Assembly: GCA_020831625.1 (NCBI GenBank) | Contig: JAFIGD010000007.1 | Span: forward strand, 1-64,000 | Origin: Verrucomicrobiota bacterium | GTDB lineage: Bacteria; Verrucomicrobiota; Kiritimatiellia; SS1-B-03-39; UBA6053 | Direction: 5' to 3' | Length of the DNA: 64,000 bases | Shown: piece by piece, positions 13,458 to 37,832 of the stretch | Position numbering within the stretch: the stretch's first letter is position 1 | How the letters are laid out: each line of letters starts with the position of its first letter | Notes under the pieces: generated by a model | Databases searched by the model: none | Told to the model about the DNA's origin: nothing | The model's input: only the letters and a program-made list of their open reading frames with translations | Position numbers and translations under genes: made by a program

Positions 13458-13511
13458 CGCACATGTGTGCGGTTTGTTTACCTTGCCGCAGGTTGGAACT
13501 GTCCGTAGTAT
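13458..13511 (+). promoter_or_regulatory. Class-1 operator-promoter of the 13577 gene, shared with the LacI gene
   Basis: Perfect arms CGCACA-TG-TGTGCG (13458-13471), 10 bases, CTTGCC (13482-13487), 18 bases, TAGTAT (13506-13511). The site lies between the divergent LacI-type regulator and the beta-helix gene, the usual arrangement for a regulator and its own operator. Confidence 0.65.
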
Positions 13512-13576
13512 GCGGAAAACAATGCGGGGGAATCCGCCATCGTATGTCCGCCACAACCCAAAACAATAAGCGATTC

Positions 13577-15289
13577 ATGAAAACATGCTTTCTTCGTAAA
13601 TCTTCAATCCCGCGTTTTATTTTCAACACAGGCGCGTTATTTTTCCTGATGAACGGGTATACGCCCGACGCGGGGGCCGCCGATGTGATCGGTCCCGACG
13701 GCATCTCCTATCCTGATTTCACCCGGGCGGGCATTCCCGGGGGCATTCCCGATGTGAACGTGGTGATCGATGTGACCACCCTGGGAGCGACACCGAACGA
13801 TGGAAAAGACGATTCGGCCGCGATCCAGGCCGCCGTCTACGCGGTGGCCGCACAGGGCGGAGGCGCGGTGTTTCTGCCCGCGGGCGAATACCACATCGAC
13901 CGAACGGTCACGATCAACCGCGACAACGTGGTGATCCGGGGCGAAGACCCGGAGAAGACCGTCATTCGACCGCGGTTCCGGGATGAAAACCACCCCGCCG
14001 GGTGGACCTTCCGTTTCGAGGGCGTGGCGCATCCGCGACGGGTCGACCTCAATATGACCCGGCCGGTCACCCGCGGCGACACCGTGCTGCATGTCAACGG
14101 CACCGGACGTTTGGAAGTCGGGGACGTGGTGACGATTGTCGCCCGCCCGCCCGCCGAAGCCATCGAACTTCTCACCGAAAAGTTGGCGGGGATCGCCACC
14201 GACGGGAGCTATGGCTCCATCTACTCCTGGCAGTATGTCCGGGTCACCGGGCTGGGTGACAACGAAATCCATGTGGACCGGCCCGCCCGCCTTGATCTGT
14301 CTTTGGAGCAACGCCCCCAGGTGCTCATGCACAACCGGCTGCTCAAGGGAGCCGGGATTGAGAATTTGACCATTGAACAGGAGGTGGAAACGCGCGGCAT
14401 CAACGGCGTGCGTTTCTACGCCACCGAGCGGAATTGGATGCGCGGAGTGACCATTCGCCGGATTGGGAACACGCCCGTGAACTGGGTGCGGAGCTTTGAG
14501 TTCGAGGTGCGAGGGTGCACCCTGGACGACATGCGCTCACGGGGGGGCGCTGTCGGATACTTCGGAATCAATTTCAGCAGCGACGGGCTGGTGGAGGACT
14601 GCGACATCCGGCGGCTGCGGCATCTGTCAATCAGCATGGCCAGCAACGGCATCGTGCTGCACCGCTGTCGGCTGTCGAACGTTGACATTAACTTCCACAT
14701 GCACTGGCCGAATGGAAACCTGGTCGACAACTGTGACGTCGACGCCACCACCGAGGCCGACGACGGCGCGACCCGGGGCACCTACAACTGGGGCATCTAC
14801 ACCCCGCGGCACACGGGGGACATGCACAATCCCGCCGGCCCGCACAACACCTTTTTCAACAGCCGGTACACCAGCGCCAAAGACGGAATCATGCTGGGCG
14901 GCGGGGCGACCCGCCACACCCTTATCACCTACAACCACTTTGTCTCGCGCGGCGGCAGCGCCGCGATCCTGCAGGAGGGCAGCGACGACACGGTGCTGAT
15001 CGGCAACAACTTCGTGCTGGATAATCCCGGGGAAACAGCGGGGGGAACCCAGTGGCGCGTACCCTCGCGCACCGTTGAAGAACTGGTCGGGGGCATCATC
15101 CTGGCGGCGGAAATCCCGGGACTCCGGATCATCGGCAACACCTTCACAGGTATTCCGGAGGATCAGATTCTGTTGCATGGCGAAGCGGCGGAAAAACGGG
15201 ACAACACCGTGTCCGACATCCCGCCGGACGCGACCCGGCCCTTTGCACCCTCCCTGCTGGAGTGGCAACGGGAACGGAAGTCCCGGTGA
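13577..15289 (+). CDS. Secreted pectate-lyase-superfamily beta-helix protein
   Basis: From ATG 13577 this is a 570-residue protein with a signal peptide ending near PDAGA. An in-frame ATG at 13544 has a G-rich sequence upstream and is an alternative start. The mature N-terminus carries the motif GPDGISYPDFTRAGIPGGIP, shared with the proteins at 16445 and 34886. Then comes the Pfam pectate_lyase_3-type opening DDSAAIQAAVYAVAAQGGG with FLPAGEYHID, and a long parallel beta-helix with repeated short Asn/Gly turns. The C-terminus ends in PSLLEWQRE, also shared. Proteins of this type are polysaccharide lyases or GH28-like hydrolases; catalytic residues could not be assigned. It is the immediate neighbour of the LacI-type regulator and carries the class-1 operator-promoter. 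Confidence 0.75.
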   Translation: MKTCFLRKSSIPRFIFNTGALFFLMNGYTPDAGAADVIGPDGISYPDFTRAGIPGGIPDVNVVIDVTTLGATPNDGKDDSAAIQAAVYAVAAQGGGAVFLPAGEYHIDRTVTINRDNVVIRGEDPEKTVIRPRFRDENHPAGWTFRFEGVAHPRRVDLNMTRPVTRGDTVLHVNGTGRLEVGDVVTIVARPPAEAIELLTEKLAGIATDGSYGSIYSWQYVRVTGLGDNEIHVDRPARLDLSLEQRPQVLMHNRLLKGAGIENLTIEQEVETRGINGVRFYATERNWMRGVTIRRIGNTPVNWVRSFEFEVRGCTLDDMRSRGGAVGYFGINFSSDGLVEDCDIRRLRHLSISMASNGIVLHRCRLSNVDINFHMHWPNGNLVDNCDVDATTEADDGATRGTYNWGIYTPRHTGDMHNPAGPHNTFFNSRYTSAKDGIMLGGGATRHTLITYNHFVSRGGSAAILQEGSDDTVLIGNNFVLDNPGETAGGTQWRVPSRTVEELVGGIILAAEIPGLRIIGNTFTGIPEDQILLHGEAAEKRDNTVSDIPPDATRPFAPSLLEWQRERKSR

Positions 15290-15324
15290 TGATCCTGACG
15301 AATTTCCATCCCGTACAGGAGCTT

Positions 15325-15378
15325 CGCATATGTGTGCGGAAATTTTCTCTTGTCCGATTCAAGCCTTCTGCGTATAGT
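15325..15378 (+). promoter_or_regulatory. Class-1 operator-promoter of the second PEP-CTERM gene
   Basis: CGCATA-TG-TGTGCG (15325-15338) has one arm mismatch. It is followed after 10 bases by CTTGTC (15349-15354), 18 bases and TATAGT (15373-15378). A half-site CGCACA lies just after the -10 box, near 15384. Confidence 0.65.
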
Positions 15379-15472
15379 AAATTCGCACATCAGACGGGTT
15401 CCGACGATTCCCGCCGAACACAGTCAAACAACTCCAGGCAAACACAACCCCCAACTGAGAAGAGGAAAACCA

Positions 15473-16351
15473 ATGAAGACCAACTCCACACCCCAAACGA
15501 AGAGAGAATACCCTGTGAAAACCATATCAGCACATTTGAAGACGAGCCTACTGTCCGCATTTCTCTTTGCGGGCGTGGCGGGGCAGGCAACGGCAATGCT
15601 CCTTGCGTACGAGGGCTTTGATTATACGGCGGGAAGCCAATTGAGCGGTCAAAATGGCGGCACCGGTTGGGATGGTTCGTGGGGAGTGAGCAACTCCGCC
15701 CGCGCAATTGTTCTGGACGGGGGATTATCATACCTCAACCTAGTGGTTTCCGGTAATTCCGTCGGCAATCCTGACACGACGAGTTCCTTCAGTGTAACCC
15801 GTCTCTTTGATAGTGCGCCTGATTCCGGCACGGTGTATTTCAGTTTTCTCGTACATGGCGACGAAACGGTCACCGGACGATATGGTGCTCTCTTGCGTCC
15901 GGCGGCCGGGGGGACGAGTCCGGTGGCCATGGGGCAGTCGACAAGCCAGTCTCTAGACGGAACAAGTCCCTTTAGTATGCGCGAAAATCAGACAAACCAA
16001 GGCGGGATCAATGGGGCGAATCCGGGAGGAACGAGCATCGTTGGAACGAACTTTTTGGTGGTGGAGTTGAATCTTGACACCAATCAGGCAAGTTACTGGG
16101 CGAATCCCACCAGCCTCGGCGGAGCCGCACCGACTGCCACAGTGTCCGGTGTCTCGTTTACTTCGCCGCCGGCCTTCCTCGAGCAGTTCTACTTCGGCAC
16201 CCAGGATTCCGGATCCGCCAAGGTCATTTACGACGAATTCCGGATCGGCACCACCTACGCCTCGGTGTCACCGATTCCCGAGCCCTCCACCTTGTTGCTG
16301 GTGTTCGGGGCTTTCACGTTTCTTGTCATGATGGGTCGGCGCCGCAAGTAA
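15473..16351 (+). CDS. PEP-CTERM sorting domain protein
   Basis: The protein has 292 residues from ATG 15473, which is preceded by a good AGAAGAGG ribosome-binding sequence. An N-terminal signal peptide (SLLSAFLFAGVAGQATA) leads into a mature domain beginning YEGFDYTAGSQLSGQNGG, which is common at the start of LamG-like PEP-CTERM proteins; the rest is beta-rich. The C-terminus has IPEPSTLLLVF, a hydrophobic segment and a GRRRK tail, the exosortase-dependent surface signal. It stands as its own transcription unit, with a class-1 operator-promoter upstream and a strong terminator downstream. The shared operator suggests that it is made together with the beta-helix enzymes and may help bind or hold the polysaccharide at the cell surface (inference). 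Confidence 0.88.
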   Translation: MKTNSTPQTKREYPVKTISAHLKTSLLSAFLFAGVAGQATAMLLAYEGFDYTAGSQLSGQNGGTGWDGSWGVSNSARAIVLDGGLSYLNLVVSGNSVGNPDTTSSFSVTRLFDSAPDSGTVYFSFLVHGDETVTGRYGALLRPAAGGTSPVAMGQSTSQSLDGTSPFSMRENQTNQGGINGANPGGTSIVGTNFLVVELNLDTNQASYWANPTSLGGAAPTATVSGVSFTSPPAFLEQFYFGTQDSGSAKVIYDEFRIGTTYASVSPIPEPSTLLLVFGAFTFLVMMGRRRK

Positions 16352-16387
16352 CCAAATCGCCATCCCAGCAATCCCAAAGTTCATTCC

Positions 16388-16425
16388 GGGGTCCCGGCAT
16401 TATTCCGCCGGGACCCCGTTTTTTC
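16388..16425 (+). terminator. Strong Rho-independent terminator after the PEP-CTERM gene
   Basis: A perfect 12-bp stem (CGGGGTCCCGGC at 16388-16399 with GCCGGGACCCCG at 16408-16419), an 8-base loop and six T residues (16420-16425). It closes the PEP-CTERM transcription unit. Confidence 0.92.
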
Positions 16426-16444
16426 ATGCCCGTTCCACGTCCCC

Positions 16445-18154
16445 ATGTCTTTGTTCCCACTGAGTCCCTTATGCTGCCCCCCCCTGAACCCGACTCCCGT
16501 GATCCCGCTCCTGATGGCCCTCCTGACGTCCTTCGGGATGGCTGGCACACCTTTGGAGGCCGACATGGAAGGTCCAGACGGCATTCGGTATCCTTTGTTC
16601 GTCTACGCGGGCGTTCCGGGCGGCATACCGGAAATTCCGGTGGCGGTCCGCGCATCTGATTTCGGCCTGCCCGGGGACGGAAAATCCGATGCTTCGCCCG
16701 CAATTCAGGCGGCTCTGGACGCGGCCGCGGAAGCGGGCGGCGGCGCGGTTTTGCTGCCGAAAGGAAGATACCCGATCGATCAAGCCCTGCACTTCCCGTC
16801 CGACGGGGTGGTGCTGCGGGGGGAGGACCGCGCGGACACGGTTCTGCTTCCCCGCTTTGCCGGTTCGGGGGAGGGGACACCTCCGGTTCTGTCGATCGCC
16901 CGCGAGGAAAACCGTCTGCGTCTGGATGTCGCGTTGGACGGGCCGGTCCGGCGGGGGCAAACCCGATTGTCCGTCCCCGATCCCTCCGCGTTTGAAATCG
17001 GTCAACGTGTGGTCCTGACCGCACTGCCTCCGGCTTCGGCCATTGAACTACTGGGCGACGAAGGGCGCGAACATATCGCAAAAGGCACCTACGGCTCCAT
17101 TTACAGCTATCAGCATTTTGTGATTCGCGAAGTGAACGAAAGCGAACTGGTGCTGGACCGCCCGGTCCGCCTGGATCTGACCCGCGAACAAAAGCCCGTC
17201 CTGCGTCGGGTCGATCTGATCACGGGATGCGGGATCGAAAATCTGAGCATTCTGCAGGAAGTCGACAGACGAAACATTCACGGGATCCGGCTGCACAACA
17301 CCGCGGACTGCTGGATTCGGGACGTCACCATGAAACGGATCGGGGACTGGCCGGTCGCCGTCAGCCGCAGCATGAATTTCGAGATCCGCGATTCTGAATT
17401 CGACGAGTCCAGAAGCATGGGCGGGGCCCGCGCGTATTTCGGGCTGTCGTTCGCGTCCGACGGTCTGATCGACAACTGTGTCATCCGTCGGTTCCGGCAC
17501 GTTTCCATTCAGTTGGCTTCGAATGGAAACGTTTTTCGTGACTGTGTGATTGAAAATGCGGACATCAATTTCCACATGCACTGGCCCTATGAAAACCTCA
17601 TTGAGAATTGTCTGCTGGATGCGACGCCCGGACCGGACCCCGACGAGCGGTCGCGCGGATCCTACGGGTTCGGAATTTATCTCCCGGATCACCGGGGAGG
17701 CGGACACAACCCCGGGGGACCCCGGAACACCTTTTTCAACAACCGCGTGATCAGCACCTGGGACGGTATTGCGCTGGGGGGGGGAGCCACCTTCGAAAGC
17801 ATTTTCGCCTACAATGTGTTTGATATCGCTCACAGCACCGCCGCCGTGATCAAACCCGGCAGCGACCGCAGCCTCCTTTTCGGGAACACCTTTCTCCTGC
17901 GGGATCCCCACCGGCGCCGGGCGGGCGGGTTTTACGGAACCCCGGATGCGGGCGAATTGACCGGGGCGGTGATTTTCCCGTCCGGCATGCCGTCGGAACT
18001 TCGGGTGGAGAACAATCTGTTTTACGGGGCGCCGAGTGAGGGACTGTTTTTCCCGGAGGCCCCGGAGTTCGTTCGGGACAACGAAATTCTGTCGCACTGG
18101 ATGCGTCCGGCCGGGCAGCCGCCCGCCGGCGCCGTTTCCCTGGCCGGAACGTGA
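16445..18154 (+). CDS. Pectate-lyase-superfamily beta-helix protein, ended by an in-frame TGA
   Basis: This reading of 569 residues is a close paralogue of the 13577 product: the same mature opening (GPDGIRYPLFVYAGVPGGIP), SPAIQAALDAAAEAGGG, LLPKGRYPID, a GTYGSIYSYQHF motif and the ADINFHMHWPYEN rung near residue 375. A hydrophobic leader (about residues 17-40) suggests secretion, although the preceding residues are Pro/Cys-rich and the true start may be an internal ATG at 16514. The frame stops at TGA 18152-18154 and continues open, in the same frame, from 18155 to 18724 with a galactose-binding-like domain. It was therefore probably one 760-codon gene. Only 19 bases separate the PEP-CTERM terminator from the start, so its promoter is unclear. 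Confidence 0.7.
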   Translation: MSLFPLSPLCCPPLNPTPVIPLLMALLTSFGMAGTPLEADMEGPDGIRYPLFVYAGVPGGIPEIPVAVRASDFGLPGDGKSDASPAIQAALDAAAEAGGGAVLLPKGRYPIDQALHFPSDGVVLRGEDRADTVLLPRFAGSGEGTPPVLSIAREENRLRLDVALDGPVRRGQTRLSVPDPSAFEIGQRVVLTALPPASAIELLGDEGREHIAKGTYGSIYSYQHFVIREVNESELVLDRPVRLDLTREQKPVLRRVDLITGCGIENLSILQEVDRRNIHGIRLHNTADCWIRDVTMKRIGDWPVAVSRSMNFEIRDSEFDESRSMGGARAYFGLSFASDGLIDNCVIRRFRHVSIQLASNGNVFRDCVIENADINFHMHWPYENLIENCLLDATPGPDPDERSRGSYGFGIYLPDHRGGGHNPGGPRNTFFNNRVISTWDGIALGGGATFESIFAYNVFDIAHSTAAVIKPGSDRSLLFGNTFLLRDPHRRRAGGFYGTPDAGELTGAVIFPSGMPSELRVENNLFYGAPSEGLFFPEAPEFVRDNEILSHWMRPAGQPPAGAVSLAGT

Positions 18155-18157
18155 AAG

Positions 18158-18724
18158 GTGGAGGAAACCGTTCGTCTGGAGGGCGTCCCGTCGCCGGAGG
18201 AACGGCATCCGGATCCCGGGATCTCCGAACGGGCCGCGACCCTGGCCCGCGCCCCGGCAGATCATCCGGACTGGAAAAAAATTGAACTGCCGGGTATGTT
18301 CAAAGGAGAGCCGGTGGACTGGGAGCGGTATGACGGGGAGGTCGTTTTGCATCGGGTCTTTGACCTGCGGGAGGAATTGCTCGGACAGGATTTGCTTTTG
18401 TCTTTGGGTGCGATTGATGATTATGACACCACTTGGATCAACGGGGAGGTGGCGGGGTCGAAATCCGACGCGAACGCATGGCGGACCCCTCGGTTTTACC
18501 GGGTGCCGGCCGGCCTCTTGAACGCGCGGGGAAATGAAATCGTCATCCGGGTATGGGACGCGTTCGGCGGCGGCGGGTTTTCGGGAATCGCGGGGGATTT
18601 GTGGATTGGTCCCGAGGACAGCGCGGTTGAGTTGACCGTGCCCGATACACCGGTTCGCCGGGAACCGCCGTTTCCCTCACTCCTGGAATGGCAGCGGTCA
18701 GTTTATTCGGACCTGAAACCGTGA
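18158..18724 (+). pseudogene. Galactose-binding-like C-terminal part of the 16445 gene
   Basis: These 188 codons follow the TGA at 18152-18154 in the same frame, one codon later, beginning with a possible GTG. They encode a jelly-roll of the GH2/sialate-esterase carbohydrate-binding type: LLLSLGAIDDYDTTWINGE, then VPAGLLNARGNEIVIRVWD and GGGGFSG. The same module is built into the C-terminal part of the 47929 protein (LVLSLGAVDDFDDTFWNG). The end, FPSLLEWQRS, matches the C-terminus of the 13577 protein. Together this indicates that the two pieces were a single protein. Alternatives are TGA read-through, a GTG restart coupled to the upstream stop, or a sequencing error. Confidence 0.65.
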
Positions 18725-18916
18725 GATATTTGCTGTGAATCCACACCGCCTCATGGATTGACTGCCTGGTTGACCACCGGTCCACCCGGATCGGGTATCT
18801 CGATCAGTCCCGGTCCCGGGTCACGCAATCAGCGTTCACTTCAGATTGACCTGTCTGCCCGGAGTTTATAGGGAAACGTATACTTGGGCAGGTCCCATGC
18901 GAACGTTTCATGCCTC

Positions 18917-22028: not shown

Positions 22029-22035
22029 GGGTGGA

Positions 22036-22098
22036 TACGTATCGGATGCCCGGATGTAAACAAGCGAGAAAAATCTTCCGTTTCCGCACATGTGTGCG
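22036..22098 (-). promoter_or_regulatory. Possible minus-strand promoter of GH2 using the shared class-1 operator
   Basis: Read on the minus strand, the class-1 site (22098-22085) is followed after 20 bases by CTTGTT (22064-22059), a 17-bp spacer and TACGTA (22041-22036), only 7 bases before the ATG. The 20-base distance is one helical turn more than at the other sites. The -10 box is weak. Confidence 0.3.
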
Positions 22099-22138
22099 TT
22101 TTGTTTCTCTTTCAAAGAACTCCTCTCCGGTGTATGAT
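22085..22138 (+). promoter_or_regulatory. Class-1 operator-promoter of the pseudopilin gene
   Basis: Perfect arms CGCACA-TG-TGTGCG (22085-22098), 10 bases, CTTTCA (22109-22114), 18 bases, TATGAT (22133-22138). The site sits between the divergent GH2 and pseudopilin genes. Confidence 0.6.
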
Positions 22139-22238
22139 GTGCAAAATACGATGAGCATTAATTCTTCCGAATTTTGACTGCCTAGTTCAACGGCGTTCAC
22201 GGTTTGAACTCAAGTCAATCTCCACAAGGATACAAAAA

Positions 22239-22943
22239 ATGACCCCTTTCAAAAACACATCCCGCCGAATCAAACCGGCCGACCGTGAGAACGTGCAAAT
22301 GATCCCCCCCGGACCGCATGGACAGCGGGAGGCGTTTACCCTGATTGAGATGCTTGTGGTGATTGCCATCCTTGCCTTGTTGGCGGCTCTGATCATTCCT
22401 TCGATTTCCAGAGCGATGGATTCCGCACAGGCAAGAAAATGCATGTCGAATTTGCGAAACATCAATTTGGCCCATCAAATGTACATGACGGAAAACAACG
22501 GGCGCATCGTCTACGGACGGGGGCATGGCGGCCAGCAGTTTTACGATGATCTCGAACCGTATCTGATCAGTGTGACGGCCCAGGGGAAATTGCCCGAGGG
22601 TATATGGCGCTGTCCTTCAACCACTGAACTCCCCCCAGGGAATACCCGCTCGCACTTCGGAAAAAACGGATACATCAATGAAACCACGGATCCGGGATCC
22701 GACCCGACCACCCGGGGGTGGACCCTGTTGATGATCCCGAATCCGGCGGAAATTTTCGCGTTTGGTGAATCAACATTCCGGGAAATCCGGAATTACGGAC
22801 ATATCGCGACCCGGCACCGGGGCCGGGCGAATATGTCGTATTTTGACGGGAGTATCCGCGCGGTGGACCCGGCGGAATTACCCGCCTTTCATCACAGAAG
22901 GCCTCCCTTTCGCCCTGTTACGCAAAAATCCGGTTGGAATTAA
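22239..22943 (+). CDS. Prepilin-type protein with H-X9-DG domain
   Basis: A 234-residue pseudopilin. After a short basic leader comes the prepilin peptidase/methylation site EAFTLIEMLVVIAILALLAA, giving cleavage before Phe and a hydrophobic helix. Near the C-terminus, HRGRANMSYFDG fits the H-X9-DG motif that marks a large pseudopilin family in Planctomycetota, Lentisphaerota and Verrucomicrobiota. Such proteins are thought to be assembled by type II secretion/type IV pilus-like machinery; many copies occur per genome beside enzyme genes. AAGGA upstream of the ATG supports the start. The leader before the cleavage site is unusually long (about 31 residues). Its stop codon overlaps that of the convergent GH4 gene. 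The class-1 operator upstream links it to the polysaccharide regulon. Confidence 0.88.
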   Translation: MTPFKNTSRRIKPADRENVQMIPPGPHGQREAFTLIEMLVVIAILALLAALIIPSISRAMDSAQARKCMSNLRNINLAHQMYMTENNGRIVYGRGHGGQQFYDDLEPYLISVTAQGKLPEGIWRCPSTTELPPGNTRSHFGKNGYINETTDPGSDPTTRGWTLLMIPNPAEIFAFGESTFREIRNYGHIATRHRGRANMSYFDGSIRAVDPAELPAFHHRRPPFRPVTQKSGWN

Positions 22944-24106: not shown

Positions 24107-24186
24107 GATATGCTCCTTGCGGTGTGAGAGGTATATGTTAAATCTTCAGATATGTTTGATCGTGACATGATATAATCCGTTGGTAA

Positions 24187-24201
24187 ACAACAGAATGTTG
24201 T
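24187..24201. promoter_or_regulatory. Palindrome upstream of GH4
   Basis: ACAACA-GAA-TGTTGT is a perfect 6-bp inverted repeat with a 3-base centre. On the minus strand it overlaps a possible promoter (TTCTGT, 17 bases, TATCAT) reading toward GH4. It differs from both recurrent operator types and may be the site of another regulator. Confidence 0.3.
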
Positions 24202-24289
24202 ATGTTTGTGCCCTGAATATAAAAATCATGCTTTTTCATTCCGACCTTGAACTCCGCGAAACCGGCTTTCAGCGCATCCGGGCGTTTCG

Positions 24290-24577
24290 ATGTCGGAGAT
24301 TGAAACCGCGGCGGATTGTTCTCGCTATCATCTATCCCGACTCTTTCGCAAAGAAACCGGCTCCAGCCCTTATGCGACACTTCAGGATATCCGCATTCGA
24401 AAGGCGATCCGTCTGCTAAACCACCGGGAGGACTCCGTCAAAGAAATCGCGTGGCAGTGCGGGTATCGCGACACTGCCAATTTCTGCCGCGAGTTCAAGC
24501 GCCGCACCCTAAACACCCCCACCCAGGCGCGCAAACAGACCCAAACGCACAATTTCACTAGTATCCATCAGAGTTGA
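24290..24577 (+). pseudogene. AraC-family regulator remnant (DNA-binding domain only)
   Basis: The 95 codons encode nearly all of an AraC/XylS double helix-turn-helix: SRYHLSRLFRKETGSSPYA for the first unit and SVKEIAWQCGYRDTANFCRE, then FKRRTLNTPTQAR, for the second. The sensing domain expected upstream (about 150-200 residues) is absent, and the bases before 24290 do not continue in the same frame. It lies in the gap between the divergent GH4 gene and the isomerase gene and is probably the tail of a deleted regulator. Expression as a stand-alone DNA-binding domain cannot be excluded. Confidence 0.65.
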
Positions 24578-24584
24578 GGCGCAT

Positions 24585-25433: not shown

Positions 25434-25513
25434 GGTTGGTCAATTATGTCTTGATTGAATTGAAGAAAGCCCGTCTGAAAGCGGTTGCACAAAAGCTAAT
25501 TACGGATCGTCGG

Positions 25514-26221: not shown

Positions 26222-26224
26222 AAA

Positions 26225-29200
26225 TTAAATGTCATCCTCTGAAAGCCAACGAAAGCGCACGATGCGGTATTTCCGACCGAAGGTTTGGGCGGTTTGGTCT
26301 GAGGGGTTCAATTCCGCCGCCGGATCATTCGGATCGGCCGCACCGGGTTCCAGCGGTTCTGGTGTACGCTGTACCACGGCTTCACACCAGGCGGCAGCCT
26401 CCGTTTTACCCGTGGATTCATTCAACACCTCCCCATAAGCACGAACCACAAAGGTATCGGAACGCACCGCGATGATCGATCCTATTTTCTGGAGAACATC
26501 TCCCTGCAGCACAAATCCAGCCGCGCCGGATCCGGTGGAACCGTAGAGGTTGTCGGAGTAGGGAACGACTGCGGATGCACCCAGCCTGTAATTCGAAGAA
26601 TTCTTCCATGCCTCGGGAGCCAGCTTAAATTCATCATACATGTCATTAATCGATGTCTCATCAATGGCACGCTGCAGCAGTCCGGCCTTCGCTTCCGGCG
26701 GCACTGTGGACGGCAGGGGGGCGGGCAGCTCCCGATTCACGAACTCGGACAGAGAAAGGACCGGTCTTCCGAGGCGGCTTGCCCGCTCCTGAATCAGTTC
26801 CACAACCTTCTCCGCCAAAATGTTGACCTGATCGTCCGTCAGCGAGGCCATCCCTCCCCAGGCATCGTGGTCATAATAATCATTTCCTCTGTCGGCCGCC
26901 GTCGGCCGGGTCAGGCGGCCGATTCGGGTGTTCTGATGATCCGCAGGAAATCCGGCATCCGCCTGCTGAAGTCCCGAATCCTCGTAATAAAACGGGGTCC
27001 CTTTGTCGGAGCCCAACACGGCGGCCCATGCTTTTGCGGAAACGGAGTTTACATTAAACATGCCCTCGGCGTTTAAACCGGCCGCTGCGGTACGGAAATC
27101 CGACAGACGGCTCTGGAGGTCTTGAATGGGGATTCCCTTCGCCGGGACATGGCGGGGATTCCTCAAAGTGCCCGAGCCGTCGACAAAGTCCTGCACCACT
27201 TGATCGATCGTGCGATTGACCGCGTCCCCATAACTGCTGGATTCGGGACTGATGGAGGAAAAGAAATACCCGTCCCACAACGTTTCATTCGCCAGATACG
27301 AAATGTCATAGGCCAACCGTGCCTGGGATCCACTTACCAATGCCTGCATCGTCTTGTCAGCCCGTACCCAGGGACTGGCAAAGGAATTTGAGATGGCCAG
27401 TGAGGGTTGATACCCCAACTTCGCGATATTCGCATGCTGGAGCTGGCCGAGAGACAGCAGGGGCGATGTGGGCAGTTCCAGCATGACCGGATAGGATGTG
27501 GAAGGCTCTTTCGAAGGTCCCCAATAAGCACGTCCTCCATCGTTCTGAATCACATCCGTAAAGCCGGCCGGCTTACGCCACCAAGGCATAATCCCCGGGG
27601 TGGCATCATTAAACGTTTTGCTGGCAACTGTTTGCCTCTGTTGAGTGACCGCGAGCGGATTCATGCGGCTGTAGGGGGGGAAAGCACGGCTCCCGCCGGA
27701 ACGGCCGGCTTCATAATCCCCCGGGGTTAAATTGAGCACCTCCCAGGCATAAAGCGGTGTGGGTATGGCCCATTGGTCCGCACGCCGTGTCAATGACCCC
27801 GGATTGTTGATCGTGTCTTGCCCCCCTTCCACGAAGGCGGCGGAAATTTGGCCTTCCATGCGGGACATGACACTTCCCATATAGTCCCGGTGGAAGCCGG
27901 GGTCATCGTCCATCAAGGCCTCGTCTCCAGTGGAATCTATAGCCAACAAGGCCCCTGCACGAAGACTCAGATTATGTGAAAAAGTGATTTCATCATTGTC
28001 ATCGTAGGGAATCGTAACCCATTTTGCCGCATATTGGTTAGTCGGGTTGTCCATGTTCTTTATCAGAGCAATCAAAGGAAAATAAAATCCGCCGGCCGGG
28101 TCATATCCCTCTTTCAGCTTTACCTGACCCTTGACCAGAGGGAGGGGGTCGCCATGTACATCGGGGAGAACAGATAATATCTTCACCTCCCCGGGGGCAA
28201 ATTCCCCCATGGAACCCTGAAAATCCACCTCCAGATTCATGAATCTCGAGTAGGGCTGCGCCCCGTCGAATGCCGGATCCTCAATACTGCGTAAATCCCA
28301 GAGCCTTGCTTGGAATCCCTGTAAAGATGTCCCCAAATCGTGCTTATAATTCTGTGTATAATCGTTATTCGTATCGGGCATATAAGGTTCATGAGGGTAA
28401 TGGCCTGCCGGGAAGCGCTGGTTGGAGGAAAATTCCAGCATAATCGAAGTGATCTGTGTAATGGAAATCGCCATTCTCCGGACCTTGAGGTTCACATTGT
28501 ATGGGTTGTGCACCACAAAGACCGGATTCATGATAATCCGGCCCTCCAGCTTGCCGGCATCATTCCAATGCGGGGCGGTCTGAAAGCTGACCAATAGAAA
28601 CTGCCGTACGACAACCGGACCGATGTTGGGGCGCTCAAACTGGTAAACTTCCGGCATCTCAATCGTTACGTTACCATGGGACTTTCTTACCCCGTTGGGG
28701 GTCGTCTCGGGATCCTGATCGGCGCTAAACATGCTGCTGACATTCCAAAATTCATGCATGGCACTTCCCCGGGGAACTCCCGAAGCGGTGGCGAGTTCCA
28801 GCATCTGCTGGTGATTCGGGAAATACCCATGCGCGATATAGCCGGGAGTCGCTCCACTGCGGTCCATATTCTTATAAATATTATAGTAATGCCGCAGGAC
28901 CTGCCAGGTTGGACCATACAGCGTCGGGCCAATATTATTTGAAATCCGCTCAGAGGACGGAACCTCTTTCCGGAAAAGGAAGGAAACCGGACGCCCCCAG
29001 TCGATCGTTTTTCCTCCCCATACCCCACTCTGGTTCCAGATGTAATCTCCATTTTCATCCAGGGGCGGGAACGGACTCCCCGTGCCGAACCAGGAGGTGT
29101 CGAAATCGTTGTCGCTCATCTCGAAGGCCAGCGACAGATCCCGTTTAAGCCCGCCGTTCCTGGCGTCGGTCAGAACACCCGAACTGACGGTGCTCAGGTC

Positions 29201-30049
29201 GAAAAAAAACTTTTTCGCAGCAGAATTTCCGGGATCATTCAGTGCCAGGGGCACATCTGCGATCGAATTCATACGCTGAAGTATCCCGGCATCCAAATCC
29301 GAATACGCCTCCAAATCCGTCAGCAACCAGGTTCCTGACCGGGAGGGAGCGGTCAATACGGAGTTCACCACCGTTTCAGTACTGGAGTCTTTCCGCTCAT
29401 CTGCCAGATTGATCCGGGCCTTCACCCCCTCGTCCCCCACCCACCAGGCAAAATAATGTGAAAGCGCTGAAGATCCGCCGGAGTACAACGGGACCTTGGG
29501 GACCCGCACCTCAAGGGGATTGGGATTTGTCGGATCCACATCCGCATCCGCACTGCCGCTGCCGACCAGGAGAATTTCGTCCCCGCCCGACGGAGTGGTT
29601 CGTATCGCGTCCCGGGCTGCGGCATTTGAGTGGCTCAAATCGGCGCCCGAAGCCAGCCAGCCAAGAAAGTGGCCGTACCCGGGATTTGGGGCTCCCGATG
29701 GCAGAGTTTCCGCCGAGTCCCAGACCCCGGTCAGGTAACGTCGATCCAGCGAGGTGGGGTTCGTCGCCGCTTTCGAAAAAAGATCTGCCGTGGCGGTCAC
29801 GCGTTGATCCGCCCCGGCATGCTTCTGCAGCTCACTGATCGCCACCACCACCCCCACTTTGGCATTTGCCCGGGCCCTGGCCAGGTTCACCCTCAGCTGA
29901 CTTTCCCTCAACGCCAAGCGCACCATGACCACAAAACTCAGCACGATGACCAGTAATATGGCAACCACCATGATTGTGAGGAGCAGTGCTGATCCGTTTT
30001 TCCGTGTTGAACGCTGTTTATTCTTTGTCTTGCAATTGTGTTGATTCAT
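26225..30049 (-). CDS. Verru_Chthon cassette protein A (PilX-like giant pseudopilin), copy 1
   Basis: This 1274-residue protein has an N-terminal PilX-like membrane anchor (GSALLLTIMVVAILLVIVLS, then VVMVRLALRESQ) preceded by a basic cytoplasmic tail. The motif ARARANAKVGVVVAISELQKHAG follows immediately, as in the family. The large exported part is Asn/Gly-rich without known catalytic motifs. The C-terminus (FVVRAYGE, AAAWCEAVVQRTPEP, RYRIVRFRWLSEDD) is matched almost motif for motif by the 52139 product. Family members are confined to Verrucomicrobia and close relatives and are believed to be part of a pseudopilus-like export or surface apparatus; the usual partner genes B, C and D are not next to this copy. 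The ATG at 30049 was chosen because it places the basic tail and anchor correctly and follows a GGAG. A class-1 operator lies about 85 bases upstream. Confidence 0.85.
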   Translation of the reverse strand: MNQHNCKTKNKQRSTRKNGSALLLTIMVVAILLVIVLSFVVMVRLALRESQLRVNLARARANAKVGVVVAISELQKHAGADQRVTATADLFSKAATNPTSLDRRYLTGVWDSAETLPSGAPNPGYGHFLGWLASGADLSHSNAAARDAIRTTPSGGDEILLVGSGSADADVDPTNPNPLEVRVPKVPLYSGGSSALSHYFAWWVGDEGVKARINLADERKDSSTETVVNSVLTAPSRSGTWLLTDLEAYSDLDAGILQRMNSIADVPLALNDPGNSAAKKFFFDLSTVSSGVLTDARNGGLKRDLSLAFEMSDNDFDTSWFGTGSPFPPLDENGDYIWNQSGVWGGKTIDWGRPVSFLFRKEVPSSERISNNIGPTLYGPTWQVLRHYYNIYKNMDRSGATPGYIAHGYFPNHQQMLELATASGVPRGSAMHEFWNVSSMFSADQDPETTPNGVRKSHGNVTIEMPEVYQFERPNIGPVVVRQFLLVSFQTAPHWNDAGKLEGRIIMNPVFVVHNPYNVNLKVRRMAISITQITSIMLEFSSNQRFPAGHYPHEPYMPDTNNDYTQNYKHDLGTSLQGFQARLWDLRSIEDPAFDGAQPYSRFMNLEVDFQGSMGEFAPGEVKILSVLPDVHGDPLPLVKGQVKLKEGYDPAGGFYFPLIALIKNMDNPTNQYAAKWVTIPYDDNDEITFSHNLSLRAGALLAIDSTGDEALMDDDPGFHRDYMGSVMSRMEGQISAAFVEGGQDTINNPGSLTRRADQWAIPTPLYAWEVLNLTPGDYEAGRSGGSRAFPPYSRMNPLAVTQQRQTVASKTFNDATPGIMPWWRKPAGFTDVIQNDGGRAYWGPSKEPSTSYPVMLELPTSPLLSLGQLQHANIAKLGYQPSLAISNSFASPWVRADKTMQALVSGSQARLAYDISYLANETLWDGYFFSSISPESSSYGDAVNRTIDQVVQDFVDGSGTLRNPRHVPAKGIPIQDLQSRLSDFRTAAAGLNAEGMFNVNSVSAKAWAAVLGSDKGTPFYYEDSGLQQADAGFPADHQNTRIGRLTRPTAADRGNDYYDHDAWGGMASLTDDQVNILAEKVVELIQERASRLGRPVLSLSEFVNRELPAPLPSTVPPEAKAGLLQRAIDETSINDMYDEFKLAPEAWKNSSNYRLGASAVVPYSDNLYGSTGSGAAGFVLQGDVLQKIGSIIAVRSDTFVVRAYGEVLNESTGKTEAAAWCEAVVQRTPEPLEPGAADPNDPAAELNPSDQTAQTFGRKYRIVRFRWLSEDDI

Positions 30050-30084
30050 AAACGGAGATCTCCAAGGCTTACACTGTCTATGAC

Positions 30085-30147
30085 AGGATATGCTCCACTT
30101 GCCTTGACGCAATTGATATTGCAACCGGGGTGTCGCACACCTGTGCG
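30085..30147 (-). promoter_or_regulatory. Class-1 operator with possible promoter of Verru_Chthon A copy 1
   Basis: Perfect arms CGCACA-GG-TGTGCG read on the minus strand (30147-30134). Twenty bases later is ATTGCG (30113-30108), a 17-bp spacer and TATCCT (30090-30085). The distance is 20 bases where other sites have 10, so the promoter part is less certain than the operator. Confidence 0.45.
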
Positions 30148-30160
30148 AGACTTTGAGGGG

Positions 30161-32638: not shown

Positions 32639-32645
32639 ATATTTC

Positions 32646-34865
32646 TCAATTGGTGGATGTTTCAAACAAGATTTTAACGTCAACAGCGGATTGCAAAGAT
32701 GCAGGATTGAATTCGATGATATTCGTGGCGGTCTCCTTTTCATACTCAAAAGCGGACTGGCATCCGGGGAAAAGCACTTCCTGCGCCTTCGGGGAGCAAG
32801 GCAGTTCGATCCGGCATCTTTTTATAGGGGTTTGACCGGGGAATCCGCCTTTTTGCGGGCCGATTTTGATAATCACTTCGTTCTCACGTTCTTCGTAGGC
32901 CAATTCCATTTGGGTGTATTCGCCATTAAGATACCCCTCGGTTTGTCCATCGTCCTGATAGAGACTCGACGTGTCGGACGCGCCGGGGTAACAGCGGATG
33001 ATCAGGGTTTCCAGGGGAGTGGTGGTCATTCGCGGCGAACAGGGTTGCATGGGGATGGGTGTCCCGGCCCGCGCGAACAGGGGAATGTCATCGATTCCGA
33101 CCTCCATTTCCCGCTCACAGTCGCCCTCGATGCATTCGCCCGTGAAGAAATTGAACCATTTTCCCGCGGGGAACCAGATTTTCAGTTTCACCGTGCCCGT
33201 GTCGTGGTTCAGGGGAGTCACGACAGGCGCCACCAGAAGATCGTTTCCGAGCATATACTGGAGATCGTATTCATAGGCCCGTTCATTTTCCGGATGGTCC
33301 AGATACATAGGACGCAGCAGCGGGAGGCTGTGGTCGTGGCATTGCCGGACGGCGGTGTACAGGTACGGCATCAATTGCGCACGCAGGCGAAAGGCGTCCC
33401 GCATCGCCTTTTCCTCCGTATCGCCCCACAGCCAGGGCCTGCGGTCCAGATGGGTGCCGGTGGAATGAAGCCGCAGCGCGGCGGACAGGGCTCCGAACTG
33501 AACCCATCGCACGTAGAGTTCCGGGTCGCGTTCGCCATGGAAACCACCAATGTCATGGGCCCAGAAGAAACAGCCCGAATTTCCGGATGCGAGCGTGAAG
33601 CGAATTTCGAAGGGCAGCATCTCCCAGTTGGCGGCGGCGTCGCCGGAAAAGTGGATGGGATGGCGGTGATCCCCCCAGCCGCCCCAGCGGCTGAAGCCCT
33701 GTCCGCGCCGTCCGTCTTTTTGTGAATGGTGATAGTACAGGTGATTCAACCAGGGCAGGTGAGGGAGGTAAGGCACGCCTCTCACATAGGGATAGATATA
33801 ATCCTGCTGCCAGTCCAGCCACCAGAAATCAACCCCCTGCTTCTCCACCGGCGCGTGCGCGGATGTGAAAAAGGCCTTCATGTAGTCCCGGTCGCCGGCA
33901 TCGAAGGGGATGCAGGTACGGTTCCGCTCCCGGGAAGTTTGAAGGTGTTTCAGAAACAGCGGGTAATTTTCCTCGTGCGCTCTCATGCCGTCGCAGGGAT
34001 GGTCGTTGAGCACGGTGAAAATGCCGTCCTCTTTGAATTCACGCAGCAGTTTCTCCGGCTCCGGAATCAATTCCCGGTTCCAGGTGTAACCGGTCCAGCC
34101 CAGATTCCGCGCGTGGCCGTAGCCAAGGCGGGCGTCCCGGGTGGTGTGCCAATCCATGTCCATCACCATGATGTCGAGCGGAAAATCGTGTTCGCGGTAG
34201 CCGTCGGCCAATTGACGGAAATCATCCGCGCTGTAGGGATACCAGCGACAATACCAGGAGCCGAACACATGCTTCCTGGGCAAAGGAACTTTCCCGGAAA
34301 GGGTGGTCAGATCGACCAGAGCGGATTTGTAATCAAGACCATACCCGAAGAAATACCAGTCCAGTCCCGTTCTCCCTTTTTGAGGCCGCTGCTCGATCCA
34401 CTGGTCCACCAGAATCGGTTTGGCCGAGTCGTCGATCAGGTGCCACCCATCCCGGGCCAGCAGTCCCTCCGGCAGGGGCACGGCCTTCGACACCTTGTCC
34501 AAAGTCGCCATGGCGCCCCCCAGGTTCGCGGTGCTCGCCATGCCCGGCACCCATTCGCCCGACTCTCCGCCCCGTTCAAAACGTATGTGGAGGTTGTCTT
34601 TGTGAAAGGGTTTGCCGTCTTCCCGGTAAGTGAGGGTCATGCGGTCTGTCCGAATGACCAGGGTGTCACCCTGGTCGATAAACGCTGCGTCAGGGCATCG
34701 CGCATGACGATTGGCGGCGAAAAGGGTGGGCTCGTCAATGAAATTTCCGTGCTCACAATATTCCATTCGCACGCAAGAAGGGGTGATCACGGTAAAACGG
34801 GCGGCGTGTTTTAAGCGCACCGTTTTCTGATCGGTCGGTGCGGGGGAGAGTGACAGTGTGTTCAT
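32646..34865 (-). CDS. GH31 family glycoside hydrolase, second type
   Basis: The 739-residue enzyme has no signal peptide. The barrel motifs are DIMVMDMDWHTTRDARLGYG, nucleophile region VDFWWLDWQQD (Asp about residue 351) and acid/base region HFSGDAAANW (about residue 406). The LDWQQ variant differs from the SDATEP of the neighbouring GH31, placing it in another GH31 branch, so the pair probably removes two different alpha-linked sugars. It lies between the large beta-helix gene (20 bases upstream) and the first GH31 gene, in one minus-strand operon starting at the promoter near 37779-37832. Confidence 0.87.
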   Translation of the reverse strand: MNTLSLSPAPTDQKTVRLKHAARFTVITPSCVRMEYCEHGNFIDEPTLFAANRHARCPDAAFIDQGDTLVIRTDRMTLTYREDGKPFHKDNLHIRFERGGESGEWVPGMASTANLGGAMATLDKVSKAVPLPEGLLARDGWHLIDDSAKPILVDQWIEQRPQKGRTGLDWYFFGYGLDYKSALVDLTTLSGKVPLPRKHVFGSWYCRWYPYSADDFRQLADGYREHDFPLDIMVMDMDWHTTRDARLGYGHARNLGWTGYTWNRELIPEPEKLLREFKEDGIFTVLNDHPCDGMRAHEENYPLFLKHLQTSRERNRTCIPFDAGDRDYMKAFFTSAHAPVEKQGVDFWWLDWQQDYIYPYVRGVPYLPHLPWLNHLYYHHSQKDGRRGQGFSRWGGWGDHRHPIHFSGDAAANWEMLPFEIRFTLASGNSGCFFWAHDIGGFHGERDPELYVRWVQFGALSAALRLHSTGTHLDRRPWLWGDTEEKAMRDAFRLRAQLMPYLYTAVRQCHDHSLPLLRPMYLDHPENERAYEYDLQYMLGNDLLVAPVVTPLNHDTGTVKLKIWFPAGKWFNFFTGECIEGDCEREMEVGIDDIPLFARAGTPIPMQPCSPRMTTTPLETLIIRCYPGASDTSSLYQDDGQTEGYLNGEYTQMELAYEERENEVIIKIGPQKGGFPGQTPIKRCRIELPCSPKAQEVLFPGCQSAFEYEKETATNIIEFNPASLQSAVDVKILFETSTN

Positions 34866-34885
34866 ATTTTTTACAGGATTAGAGG

Positions 34886-37735
34886 TTATTCCACGGCCTT
34901 GAAGATCCGAATGAACTGGATCTGCAGGCGGTTCGAACCCGGTGCCGGTTCGAGGACCAGGCGGTTCTCCGTGTCTTCACCCACCTTAACCACGGCGTGA
35001 TGCACATCGTAACGGTCCATGTGCCCGTCGCGGTCTTTCAACAACTTGCCGTTGACCAGGATGTGATTCACGGCGAAGAAAGTCGTCCTTTCCTGGAAGG
35101 CGTCCAAACCGCCCCAGTTTGGATACCTCGGATTGCCCAGGGCAATCTCCACTTCGTACGTTCCGGCCGGAAGCTCAATTGACCAGGCATGGTCGGGACC
35201 GGGATCAAAGCGATTGTTGGTGTCATAGAGAAAGGTGCCGGGGTCGCGTCCCGCGCGGTGGAGGCGGTCCTGGGCGGCGGGTGTGTTCCACCCATAGCGG
35301 TGGCCGCCGTTCCGGTCGCCGAAGACCTCTCCGGTCTCGGGCATCCAGTCCTCCGGATTCTCCCTGAGGTCGCGGGCCCTCAGGAAATTGACCTGTGCGA
35401 CCAATTCACCGAGGTTCCGAAACTGATCCGGTTCGCCCCCGTAGTCCGGATCCGGGTTGTACACGGGGGTGTCCACCGGCGTCATGCCCTCGGGATGGGC
35501 TCTCTGGGCCTCGAAAATCGAGGGGAACGGCGGCACCGGCCGGGGGGCGCCGTTGTCCGGCGGCAGGATCCGGTTGCCATGGCTGCGGCGCAGCGGGGTT
35601 TGCGCGTAATCCGATTCGGCCCAGCCGTCACTGAGTCGGTTGTTCGAACCGTGAATGGTGTTTGCGATTATTTCAATCCCGTGATTGTGGACGGCCAACT
35701 CCGCGTTGGCGCGGTGCGCTGCGGGCGTGTCGGATCCCCGGCCCTGTGCGCCATGGCGGAGAACCGGCGAGAACAGATCCTCCATAATGACGGTGTTGCC
35801 GATGATCAGGTGGTCGGTCTGGCGGTCCCGCATTGAAAACGCCGGACCCCGTTCGACGTGTATGCGGTTGTAGGCGAAGATCCAGCCCTGCTGGTAGCCC
35901 CCCAAATGCATCCCGCCCGTCGGACCGTAAATATCGGAGTTCCAAATCACGTTGCGCGGGCCGGGAGGCGAGTGCATCTCATTGCCCGTGTCCGGCGTGT
36001 GCAGTGCCCGTCCATAGGATCCCCCGAAGGTGTTGTCGCCCACGGCAACATTTTCCACGAGGTGCTCGACCCCGTAGCCGTTGTGCCATTGCAGGTCGCT
36101 GCCCGAGAAATTCGAATTGCGCACCACGTTCCCGGCTCCCCCGTGGAAATCGGGCGCGTGACGCTGTCCGACGCCGACCACATTCTCCATCAGACTGTCG
36201 AAAGAACCCGCGAAACCGATATAGGCCGTTCCCCCGGACTTCGGCCAGTGCGCGCCGATGAATTCACAGTCGCGGATCTCGCCGTTTTTCACGCCCGTCA
36301 TAAATCCGGCGTATTGGCCCACGTCGATCACGCGCACGTCCCGCATCCAGAAATTCCGGGCATGGGTGGTCATCACCGCGCTGTACCAGTCCTTCCGGTT
36401 GGGAAACTGAATCACCAGATCCTCAAGGCCGACGGAATCAATGGGGAATTGGGGCTGGGTATAACTGACACCTTCCTCATCCCCCTCTATCACCGGGAAG
36501 GTTATCCGCAACGGCTGGTCGATTTCCACGCGATGACCGTCAATGGCCACGATGGACACCAATTGCTCCCGGGGGTGCCCCCCGCGCGTCCGCTTTTTTA
36601 AATAATCGGTGTTTCTCGCTTGAACATTCAACATGTCGCCGGCTTGCAGGCCGCCGTGTTCATCGAGGGTGAGATCGTTTTCAAAAACGAGCACGGTGTC
36701 CCCCCGGTGCGCGGTCTCCGCCAATAGTTGGCGGTTGTTCCGTTGAGACCACTGATCACCGATAAACATGAAGGCGGCCCGCAATTGGGCGTGTCCGCCC
36801 AGTCGCCGGTTGGGGCGGCGCAGCCCCGGCACGGGTTCCCGATCCCAGTCGATATTCTTGACCTCAAAGATGTCTCCCTCGATGATGTCGCCGTCCTGGT
36901 ATTCAATCCAGGGCTGTAACCAGGCGGTCTCTTGATCCCGAAACGCCTCCCCGAAATTCCGGGCGTCCCACTGTCGGAAATAGGCCTGCTGGGTCACGCC
37001 ATCCCAGAACTGGGCGCGGTCGCGAATGATGTCTCCGTCCGCATCCAGGGCCCGCAGGCCGTACTGGCGGATGGTCCGGTTGGGCTGAACCGGATCGTCC
37101 GGATTATTGAAGCGATACCGGGCGTCACCGAAGACCATAATGACACTGTCTTGAGTCAATTTTCCGTCGAACCGGTGGATCGCCAGCCAGGGTTTGCTGT
37201 CCTCCGGACGGTCAAACGCGAACATCAGCCGGGTAACGCCGGTTCCGGGTCCCGCCTGTCCTTTTCCCATTCCCCGGATGACGACCCCGTCATACACAAC
37301 AGTGACCGGTGCGGAAATGGTGAAGGTGCCCTGCGGCAGGAGGACCACCCCGCCCGGCAAGCCCTCTTCCAGCACCCTCCGGCCGGCGGCGTCGACCGCA
37401 GCCTGCAGTTCTTCAGTGATGTCTCTTGCGCCGGGGAACCACCGGACCATCTCCACCACCGGCCAGTCATCCGAGGGGATGCCCCCGACCACCCCGGCCC
37501 GGTCCCAGCGGGGATAAACAATGCCGTCGGGCCCCACCCAGTCCGCAGCCGTCAGTTGCCCTGTGTTGCGGAAATCTTTTCGGGAAACATCGGGATAGGT
37601 GGCTGACTCGTCCGCTTGAAGGACGGAGTACGTTTGGAGTATTGCCGGTAAAAATATCGTAAGAGCAAATCGTTGAATGAAGTGAGAGGACAGTAAACGG
37701 AAAGAGAAATTATTTGAAAAACAGGATTGGCTCAT
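34886..37735 (-). CDS. Large secreted beta-helix protein, pectate-lyase superfamily, with C-terminal malectin-like domain
   Basis: The 949-residue protein has an N-terminal signal peptide (RFALTIFLPAILQTYSVLQA). The mature part has the shared opening VGPDGIVYPRWDRAGVVGGIP seen in the 13577 and 16445 products, a VLLPQGTFTIS strand, a long beta-helix (GLEDLVIQFPN, NVVRNSNFSGSDLQWHNGYG) and a linker containing PPFPSIFEAQRAH, a variant of the PSLLEWQR end of its paralogues. The last ~160 residues (FRNLGELVAQVNF to LQIQFIRIFKA) resemble malectin/CBM-like modules with YEVEIALGNPR. It probably cleaves or binds the same polysaccharide outside the cell; catalytic residues are not assigned. It is first in the operon with the two GH31 genes and has the class-1 operator-promoter at the standard spacing. 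Confidence 0.78.
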   Translation of the reverse strand: MSQSCFSNNFSFRLLSSHFIQRFALTIFLPAILQTYSVLQADESATYPDVSRKDFRNTGQLTAADWVGPDGIVYPRWDRAGVVGGIPSDDWPVVEMVRWFPGARDITEELQAAVDAAGRRVLEEGLPGGVVLLPQGTFTISAPVTVVYDGVVIRGMGKGQAGPGTGVTRLMFAFDRPEDSKPWLAIHRFDGKLTQDSVIMVFGDARYRFNNPDDPVQPNRTIRQYGLRALDADGDIIRDRAQFWDGVTQQAYFRQWDARNFGEAFRDQETAWLQPWIEYQDGDIIEGDIFEVKNIDWDREPVPGLRRPNRRLGGHAQLRAAFMFIGDQWSQRNNRQLLAETAHRGDTVLVFENDLTLDEHGGLQAGDMLNVQARNTDYLKKRTRGGHPREQLVSIVAIDGHRVEIDQPLRITFPVIEGDEEGVSYTQPQFPIDSVGLEDLVIQFPNRKDWYSAVMTTHARNFWMRDVRVIDVGQYAGFMTGVKNGEIRDCEFIGAHWPKSGGTAYIGFAGSFDSLMENVVGVGQRHAPDFHGGAGNVVRNSNFSGSDLQWHNGYGVEHLVENVAVGDNTFGGSYGRALHTPDTGNEMHSPPGPRNVIWNSDIYGPTGGMHLGGYQQGWIFAYNRIHVERGPAFSMRDRQTDHLIIGNTVIMEDLFSPVLRHGAQGRGSDTPAAHRANAELAVHNHGIEIIANTIHGSNNRLSDGWAESDYAQTPLRRSHGNRILPPDNGAPRPVPPFPSIFEAQRAHPEGMTPVDTPVYNPDPDYGGEPDQFRNLGELVAQVNFLRARDLRENPEDWMPETGEVFGDRNGGHRYGWNTPAAQDRLHRAGRDPGTFLYDTNNRFDPGPDHAWSIELPAGTYEVEIALGNPRYPNWGGLDAFQERTTFFAVNHILVNGKLLKDRDGHMDRYDVHHAVVKVGEDTENRLVLEPAPGSNRLQIQFIRIFKAVE

Positions 37736-37778
37736 GAGTGGTCCGGGTCAGGGGTGAAAGGGAATCTGAGAAGTTTCG

Positions 37779-37832
37779 ACTATGTATCGAAAACATGGAT
37801 GCAACAAGACAGATCTTCCGCACACATATGCG
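37779..37832 (-). promoter_or_regulatory. Class-1 operator-promoter of the beta-helix/GH31 operon
   Basis: On the minus strand: CGCATA-TG-TGTGCG (37832-37819), 10 bases, CTTGTT (37808-37803), 18 bases, CATAGT (37784-37779). The operator is identical to the one at 15325, and its distance to the -35 box is the same. Confidence 0.62.

Follow-up and report, generated by a model that had tools for sequence, protein, structure and literature searches.

Candidate sites of a LacI-type protein in a glycan-degradation cluster

The Verrucomicrobiota are notable degraders of polysaccharides, and in the open-access literature that we searched we found no study of how their polysaccharide clusters are switched. 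The question is raised by one stretch of 64,000 bp (here called the window; positions 1 to 64000 of contig C73 in a 4.89-Mb draft genome), in which a gene for a LacI-type protein adjoins a cluster encoding GH2, GH4, GH29-like, GH94, and heparinase-type enzymes and two of type GH31. We asked where this protein would bind, which genes it would control, and in which direction. The complete GH94 gene lies at 7239-9635; a 114-aa open reading frame (ORF) at 955-1299 on the plus strand matches the GH94 supersandwich domain over its first 49 positions only and is probably a gene remnant.

The original prediction had described five copies of a palindrome with CGCACA and TGTGCG arms in intergenic positions, and all five were confirmed (Table 1). 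As predicted, three of them (13458, 22085, and 30134) have perfect 6-bp arms, and those at 15325 and 37819 (minus reading) share the same single mismatch, CGCATA-TG-TGTGCG. Each copy lies upstream of a likely start codon, which follows 72 to 140 bp past the site. The window has three perfect and two one-mismatch matches, where about 0.0055 and 0.20 are expected from its order-2 Markov model, and no second 14-bp palindrome of the same form was found to be repeated in the window. When two mismatches were allowed, the six matches in the window against 3.2 expected were at chance level. This count and the shortness of the motif, just 14 bp, are what speak for chance palindromes of a GC-rich genome without regulatory role, a reading to which we return with the promoter alignment.

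Table 1. Regulator, palindromic sites, candidate promoters, and target genes in the window
Feature	Position	Strand	Remarks
LacI-family regulator, 355 aa	12321-13388	-	PF00356, 1.8e-15; PDB matches are LacI-family proteins
Site 1	13458-13471	+	CGCACATGTGTGCG; divergent region between lacI and beta-helix gene
Promoter for site 1	TTGCCG 13483-13488, 17 bp, TAGTAT 13506-13511	+	fixed offset
Beta-helix (pectate-lyase-like) protein	13544-15289	+	PF12708, PF13229
Site 2	15325-15338	+	CGCATATGTGTGCG
Promoter for site 2	TTGTCC 15350-15355, 17 bp, TATAGT 15373-15378	+	
PEP-CTERM protein, 292 aa	15473-16351	+	TIGR02595; C terminus PEPSTL...RRRK
Site 3	22085-22098	+	CGCACATGTGTGCG; between GH2 (minus) and pseudopilin gene (plus)
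Promoter for site 3	TTTCAA 22110-22115, 17 bp, TATGAT 22133-22138	+	
Pseudopilin, prepilin N terminus	22239-22943	+	PF07963, TIGR01710-like
Large protein, 1274 aa, pilin-like N terminus	26225-30049	-	site 30134; G001 homologue also with a site
Site 4	30134-30147	-	CGCACAGGTGTGCG read on minus strand; centre GG, promoter spacing deviant
949-aa secreted protein	34886-37735	-	site 37819; 88% identical orthologue in G001, under a site
Promoter for site 5	TTGTTG 37807-37802, 17 bp, CATAGT 37784-37779	-	
Site 5	37819-37832	-	CGCATATGTGTGCG read on minus strand

Distribution of the sites in the genome and in its relatives

The 4.89-Mb genome has six exact copies of CGCAYANNTGTGCG, five of them in the window cluster and the sixth within an ORF. 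The remainder of contig C73 adds no site unless two or more mismatches are allowed. Elsewhere in the genome, one-mismatch matches were no commoner than those of a reversed control pattern and fell mostly within long ORFs. The motif is thus not equally frequent in coding regions or far from genes genome-wide, the distribution that the original prediction had named as counting against it.

Among 346 genomes of the class, LacI relatives with more than 40% identity were found only in one genome of the same genus (G001, 6 Mb). Its orthologue, about 82 to 83% identical, is on a 25-kb contig (C171), assigned in the LacI search of named genomes to Verrucomicrobia bacterium isolate BM_Day0_Bin.15. All four exact CGCAYANNTGTGCG matches of G001 are on this contig, which has a fifth site at one further mismatch. 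The two clusters have orthologues in common for the heparinase-type protein (76%), GH2 (84%), and a sugar isomerase (87%), in a rearranged gene order. Sites are kept in both next to lacI and before the genes for the 949-aa, large pilin-like, and PEP-CTERM proteins, the last two being distant homologues (about 31%) that each stand under a site in both genomes. In the divergent region beside lacI the site is kept although the adjoining gene differs, and in the promoter of the 949-aa gene the palindrome, -35, and -10 elements stand out amid diverged DNA. As in a local LacI regulon, the sites are confined to the regulator-bearing cluster and conserved with it.

Two further observations concern G001. 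A second LacI copy (C170:500-1267) is 78% identical over residues 1 to 212 only and is probably truncated; its contig has no sites. In addition, a 55-bp stretch (18494-18548 in the window, C171:21168-21222 in G001) is 87% identical between the genomes. In the window it lies within a small ORF (18158-18724), and in G001 it occupies the gap that precedes a site; both copies may be remnants of a single gene.

Exact CGCAYATGTGTGCG was found in only 6 of 58 relatives, namely, G000, G001, G006, and three genomes of a second genus, g3 (G007, G008, and G010). The single match in G006 has no promoter-like sequence downstream, and each of the other five genomes has its matches near a LacI gene. Of the 11 genomes of the family, five have promoter-linked sites, and precisely these five encode one or the other of two LacI types; such sites are absent from the six genomes without either type. 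The combination of CGCACATGTGTGCG and a TTG 10 to 12 bases further on was found, among all 346 genomes of the class, in the same five. The g3 LacI proteins are mutual orthologues (77 to 84%), are only 25 to 27% identical to the window protein, and differ from it at residues 15/16 (YT versus HP between the types). A quick tree of 81 proteins did not place the two types as sisters, yet a single clade for both was not rejected (AU p 0.30); the operator may thus be shared or convergent. A separate observation is that in all three g3 genomes a two-mismatch palindrome lies about 220 to 230 bp inside a sulfatase gene (L097:9346, L098:11365, and L099:10160), which may reflect coding conservation or an auxiliary site.

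Fixed promoter spacing and polarity

Sixteen sites were aligned on their palindromes in the direction of the gene. The layout was palindrome-N11-TTG-N20-TATRAT, resembling a sigma70 promoter. TTG stood exactly 11 bp past the palindrome at 10 of the 16 sites, and at 10 a -10 hexamer with no more than two mismatches from TATAAT began exactly 34 bp past it; neither count was reached in 20,000 shuffles. The -35 position was within three mismatches of TTGACA at 15 of the 16. Sequence between the palindrome and the promoter elements was unconserved, which indicates that the spacing itself is what is kept, and the 11-bp gap to the -35 element recurred in two genera. If the last base of the -10 element is taken as -7, the site centre would be at -53.5 from the predicted start. 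Site 30134 has no -10 element at the common distance; TATCCT, about 9 bases further downstream, is a possible one.

The sites are also polar. The seven asymmetric copies all have their mismatches in the half away from the promoter, and TG is the central step, read in the direction of the gene, at 14 of 16 sites (counting one in G007, at 15056, that was oriented without a clear target gene). The other two are GG at window site 30134 and the canonical CG at one G010 site, CGCACAC-GTGTGCG. Polarity and the fixed distance from a sigma70-like promoter are new here; like the conservation in a second genus, they had been missed in the original prediction.

A chance origin of the palindromes was rejected on the Markov expectation, the clustering in the genome, the relatives, and the fixed spacing. 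It is contradicted by the clustering, by conservation in two genera, by the polarity, and by a promoter spacing that is held despite unrelated sequence in between, and we give it a negligible probability.

A LacI-type protein as candidate binder

The protein encoded at 12321-13388 has an N-terminal LacI-type helix-turn-helix (PF00356, 56.9 bits versus a cut-off of 27) and a match to the sensor domain resembling periplasmic binding proteins that scored under the cut-off (PF13377, 20.0 versus 26.5 bits). A low-confidence structure model (pLDDT 55) matched full-length LacI, PurR, CcpA, and RbsR. The recognition residues are Y15 and T16, followed by TVSR at positions 17 to 20; R20 of this group and the hinge Leu (in YEPDPMLQAL) are both present. 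The PurR operator of Escherichia coli, CGCAAACGTTTGCG, is likewise an even palindrome of 14 bp whose outer arms read CGCA....TGCG, and PurR also has T at residue 16. Its operator differs in having a CG centre where the sites here read CGCACA-TG-TGTGCG, and PurR mostly represses.

In the published specificity rules, R20 is paired with G at NT-6 and residues 15/16 with NT-5/-4 (PMC2978694); with the half-site written C-7 G-6 C-5 A-4, the register fits R20 to the G at NT-6. Within the same rules, CGCACAN/NTGTGCG has the form of a LacI-type operator, an even palindrome with G at NT-6. The usual central CG step of LacI operators is replaced by TG. Among 1303 known LacI motifs, 49 have another fixed centre and 29 a degenerate one (PMC4052901), and a TG centre therefore does not exclude a LacI site.

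We also considered that some other transcription factor binds the palindrome and that the LacI genes are its neighbours for another reason. LacI genes are numerous in the family, and one will therefore lie near many places by chance; moreover, the two LacI types are far apart in sequence and were not united by the quick tree, and the G008 cluster of g3 also carries an AraC-type gene. This explanation is opposed by the window cluster, where Pfam scans found no other regulator, and by the confinement of the sites in five genomes to LacI-bearing clusters, with none in the six genomes that lack both types. The palindrome itself is LacI-like (14 bp, even, G at NT-6), and the single LacI clade is unrejected. 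We regard another factor as quite improbable and retain the LacI-type protein as the candidate binder.

Target genes

The original prediction of a local regulon tied to the adjoining LacI-type gene found good support in clustering in the genome, by the same-genus genome, and by the second genus; the membership that it proposed fits in part. The PEP-CTERM, 949-aa, large pilin-like, and first beta-helix proteins each have a site of their own. The enzymes would belong at best through operons or as divergent neighbours. The pseudopilin at 22239 has a site in the window, but in the relatives none of the sites was seen to precede a pseudopilin gene. The name Verru_Chthon A for the 26225-30049 protein was unsupported by NCBIfam, and its pilin-like N terminus is present. 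The 949-aa protein had no Pfam match, and its orthologue is only distantly similar (24 to 27%) to the beta-helix proteins of the window.

Across the genomes, PEP-CTERM/LamG surface proteins are the recurring target. A PEP-CTERM protein directly follows 8 of the 16 sites, and this was seen in all five site-bearing genomes, which have 54 to 107 PEP-CTERM matches each. Other sites precede genes for proteins of the beta-helix-like, pilin-like, and LamG kinds, and one site in G010 has a sulfatase-lacI operon on its opposite side.

Mode of action

The sites, their clustering, their co-occurrence with LacI genes, and their fixed spacing and polarity come from sequence comparison, and the regulon is strongly supported. 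Binding by the 12321-13388 protein, activation, and control by a sugar are what we infer. The joint explanation that we prefer, with a probability of roughly 0.6, is that this protein binds the sites and probably activates its own glycan cluster. A LacI dimer would bind CGCAYA-TG-TGTGCG at four or five promoters of the cluster, with TG reading towards the gene, the site centre about 53.5 bp before the predicted start, and a gap of 11 bp to a sigma70-type -35 element. The bound protein would most likely contact RNA polymerase and activate transcription of the PEP-CTERM, beta-helix, 949-aa, and pseudopilin genes, as well as the large pilin-like gene with its different spacing. The enzymes would be activated through operons, and the signal would be a sugar. 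Against this explanation stand site 30134, which breaks the spacing, the TG in place of the CG common at LacI sites, and the divergence of the two LacI types, which are only 25 to 27% identical and differ at residues 15/16, though the same site is predicted for both.

The original prediction called the sites operators. The repression which that term implies is probably wrong; a fixed position upstream of the -35 element favours activation or another mode of contact. In the classic LacI repressor layout the site, or a loop partner of it, lies over the promoter or the start, whereas none of the sites here overlaps a -35 element, a -10 element, or a start; in the common layout they end 11 bp upstream of the -35 position. 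A fixed helical position upstream of -35 is a trait of class-I-type activators, and for a site that is fixed, polar, upstream, and nonoverlapping, activation by contact fits best. There is precedent within the LacI family, in which both CcpA and GalR can activate from a centre near -53.5: CcpA activates genes that have a cre upstream of -35, with helical-phase dependence reported (PMC3463425). At ackA, pta, and ilvB of Bacillus subtilis the likeness extends to a palindrome upstream of the -35 element; CcpA differs in being global, in needing HPr-Ser-P, and in a cre with a central CG, whereas here four or five clustered sites are local and have a polar TG. GalR on OE of the E. coli gal operon is also a LacI-family dimer just upstream of a promoter, and at this single upstream operator it represses gal P1 and activates gal P2 while contacting RNA polymerase, a contact that acts either way by phase (PMC4693257). 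In contrast to the single site per promoter at a fixed distance found here, gal has two overlapping promoters, a second operator, and looping.

The gal system is also the model for the main rival that remains, in which the same LacI protein represses, either by a contact that blocks open-complex formation, as with GalR at gal P1, or by looping distant sites, until released by a sugar. In its favour, repression is the mode of most characterised LacI-family proteins. By contact from -60.5, GalR represses P1 (PMC4693257), and several sites within one cluster could loop. The -35 and -10 elements are fairly good unaided, and a contact repressor is therefore possible. Repression is opposed by the absence of any site over the -35, -10, or start, by the 11-bp gap kept in two genera, by intersite spacings of about 2 to 8 kb that are unconserved, and by the usually activating effect of LacI-family sites upstream of -35 (PMC3463425). 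We judge repression unlikely and favour activation by the LacI-type protein.

Two further systems resemble the proposed regulon in part. Local LacI sugar regulons of the RegPrecise type (PMC4052901) likewise have the regulator in or beside sugar genes, an even palindrome, and an autoregulatory position; different here are the fixed, activator-like position, the TG centre, and the mostly PEP-CTERM targets. PEP-CTERM genes under RpoN (PMC9850573) are similar in that a PEP-CTERM surface protein is regulated, but the promoters here are of the sigma70 type and go with a LacI-type protein.

LacI genes and PEP-CTERM genes in the family

In G008, which is a single contig, a PEP-CTERM gene lies no more than 2.5 kb away from 14 of the 23 LacI genes, against 1.8 expected; one of 5000 rotations reached this value. 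In G008 (L156-L164) and in its family relatives the two kinds of gene adjoin each other well above chance, mostly as divergent pairs. Other LacI genes have different half-sites at the same distance from TTG, among them GTCAACGGTTGAC, GCTCAATTGTGTGAGC, ATGCATTGATATGCAT, TTGTATAGTTACAA, AATTCAATAGTATGAATT, and TTCTAATGTTGGAA. Upstream of four lacI genes of another LacI group (L114, L121, L135, and L191) we noted GTCAACGGTTGAC, 11 bp, TTG, 20 bp, and a TAT-like hexamer, so that the layout recurs around another palindrome. A first look at repeated palindromes upstream of other LacI genes revealed no comparable multisite local regulon.

In an exploratory test of other LacI genes, the signal was strong, with a value of 6.44 versus 4.38 +/- 0.31 (0 of 3000). 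In 5 of 29 ortholog groups a palindrome was conserved with its centre at -18.5 relative to TTG, compared with a mean of 0.70 and a maximum of 3 at other offsets; the CGCACA sites had set this offset and were excluded, and the regions overlap the exploratory set. A stricter hold-out of about 60 further LacI genes, with the -10 criterion of the exploratory test, failed, 4299 of 5000 random draws reaching its value, and after correction of start codons 1153 of 2000 draws did so. With TTG as the only anchor, -18.5 and -18.0 each led the offsets of its parity across the full set of 142 regions, but only weakly in the hold-out. A promoter-offset scan of the loci peaked at the same offset, mainly from the CGCACA sites. 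Given the hold-out failure and the overlapping regions, a spacing rule beyond the CGCACA sites is a promising lead and not settled. We therefore put forward only tentatively, as rather less probable than the activation of the window cluster, that many LacI regulators of the family form a modular set of activators, each with its own glycan cluster and half-site and often with a PEP-CTERM neighbour, and all binding at one common place whose centre lies about 18.5 bp before the -35 element.

The window offers a concrete and testable unit of regulator, site, and promoter, in which PEP-CTERM surface proteins and enzymes are linked to a LacI-type sensor. Should the fixed upstream position indicate activation, it would be a mistake, for a whole group of regulators, to equate a LacI gene with a repressor, and the start sites and inducers of many clusters could be predictable from sequence.
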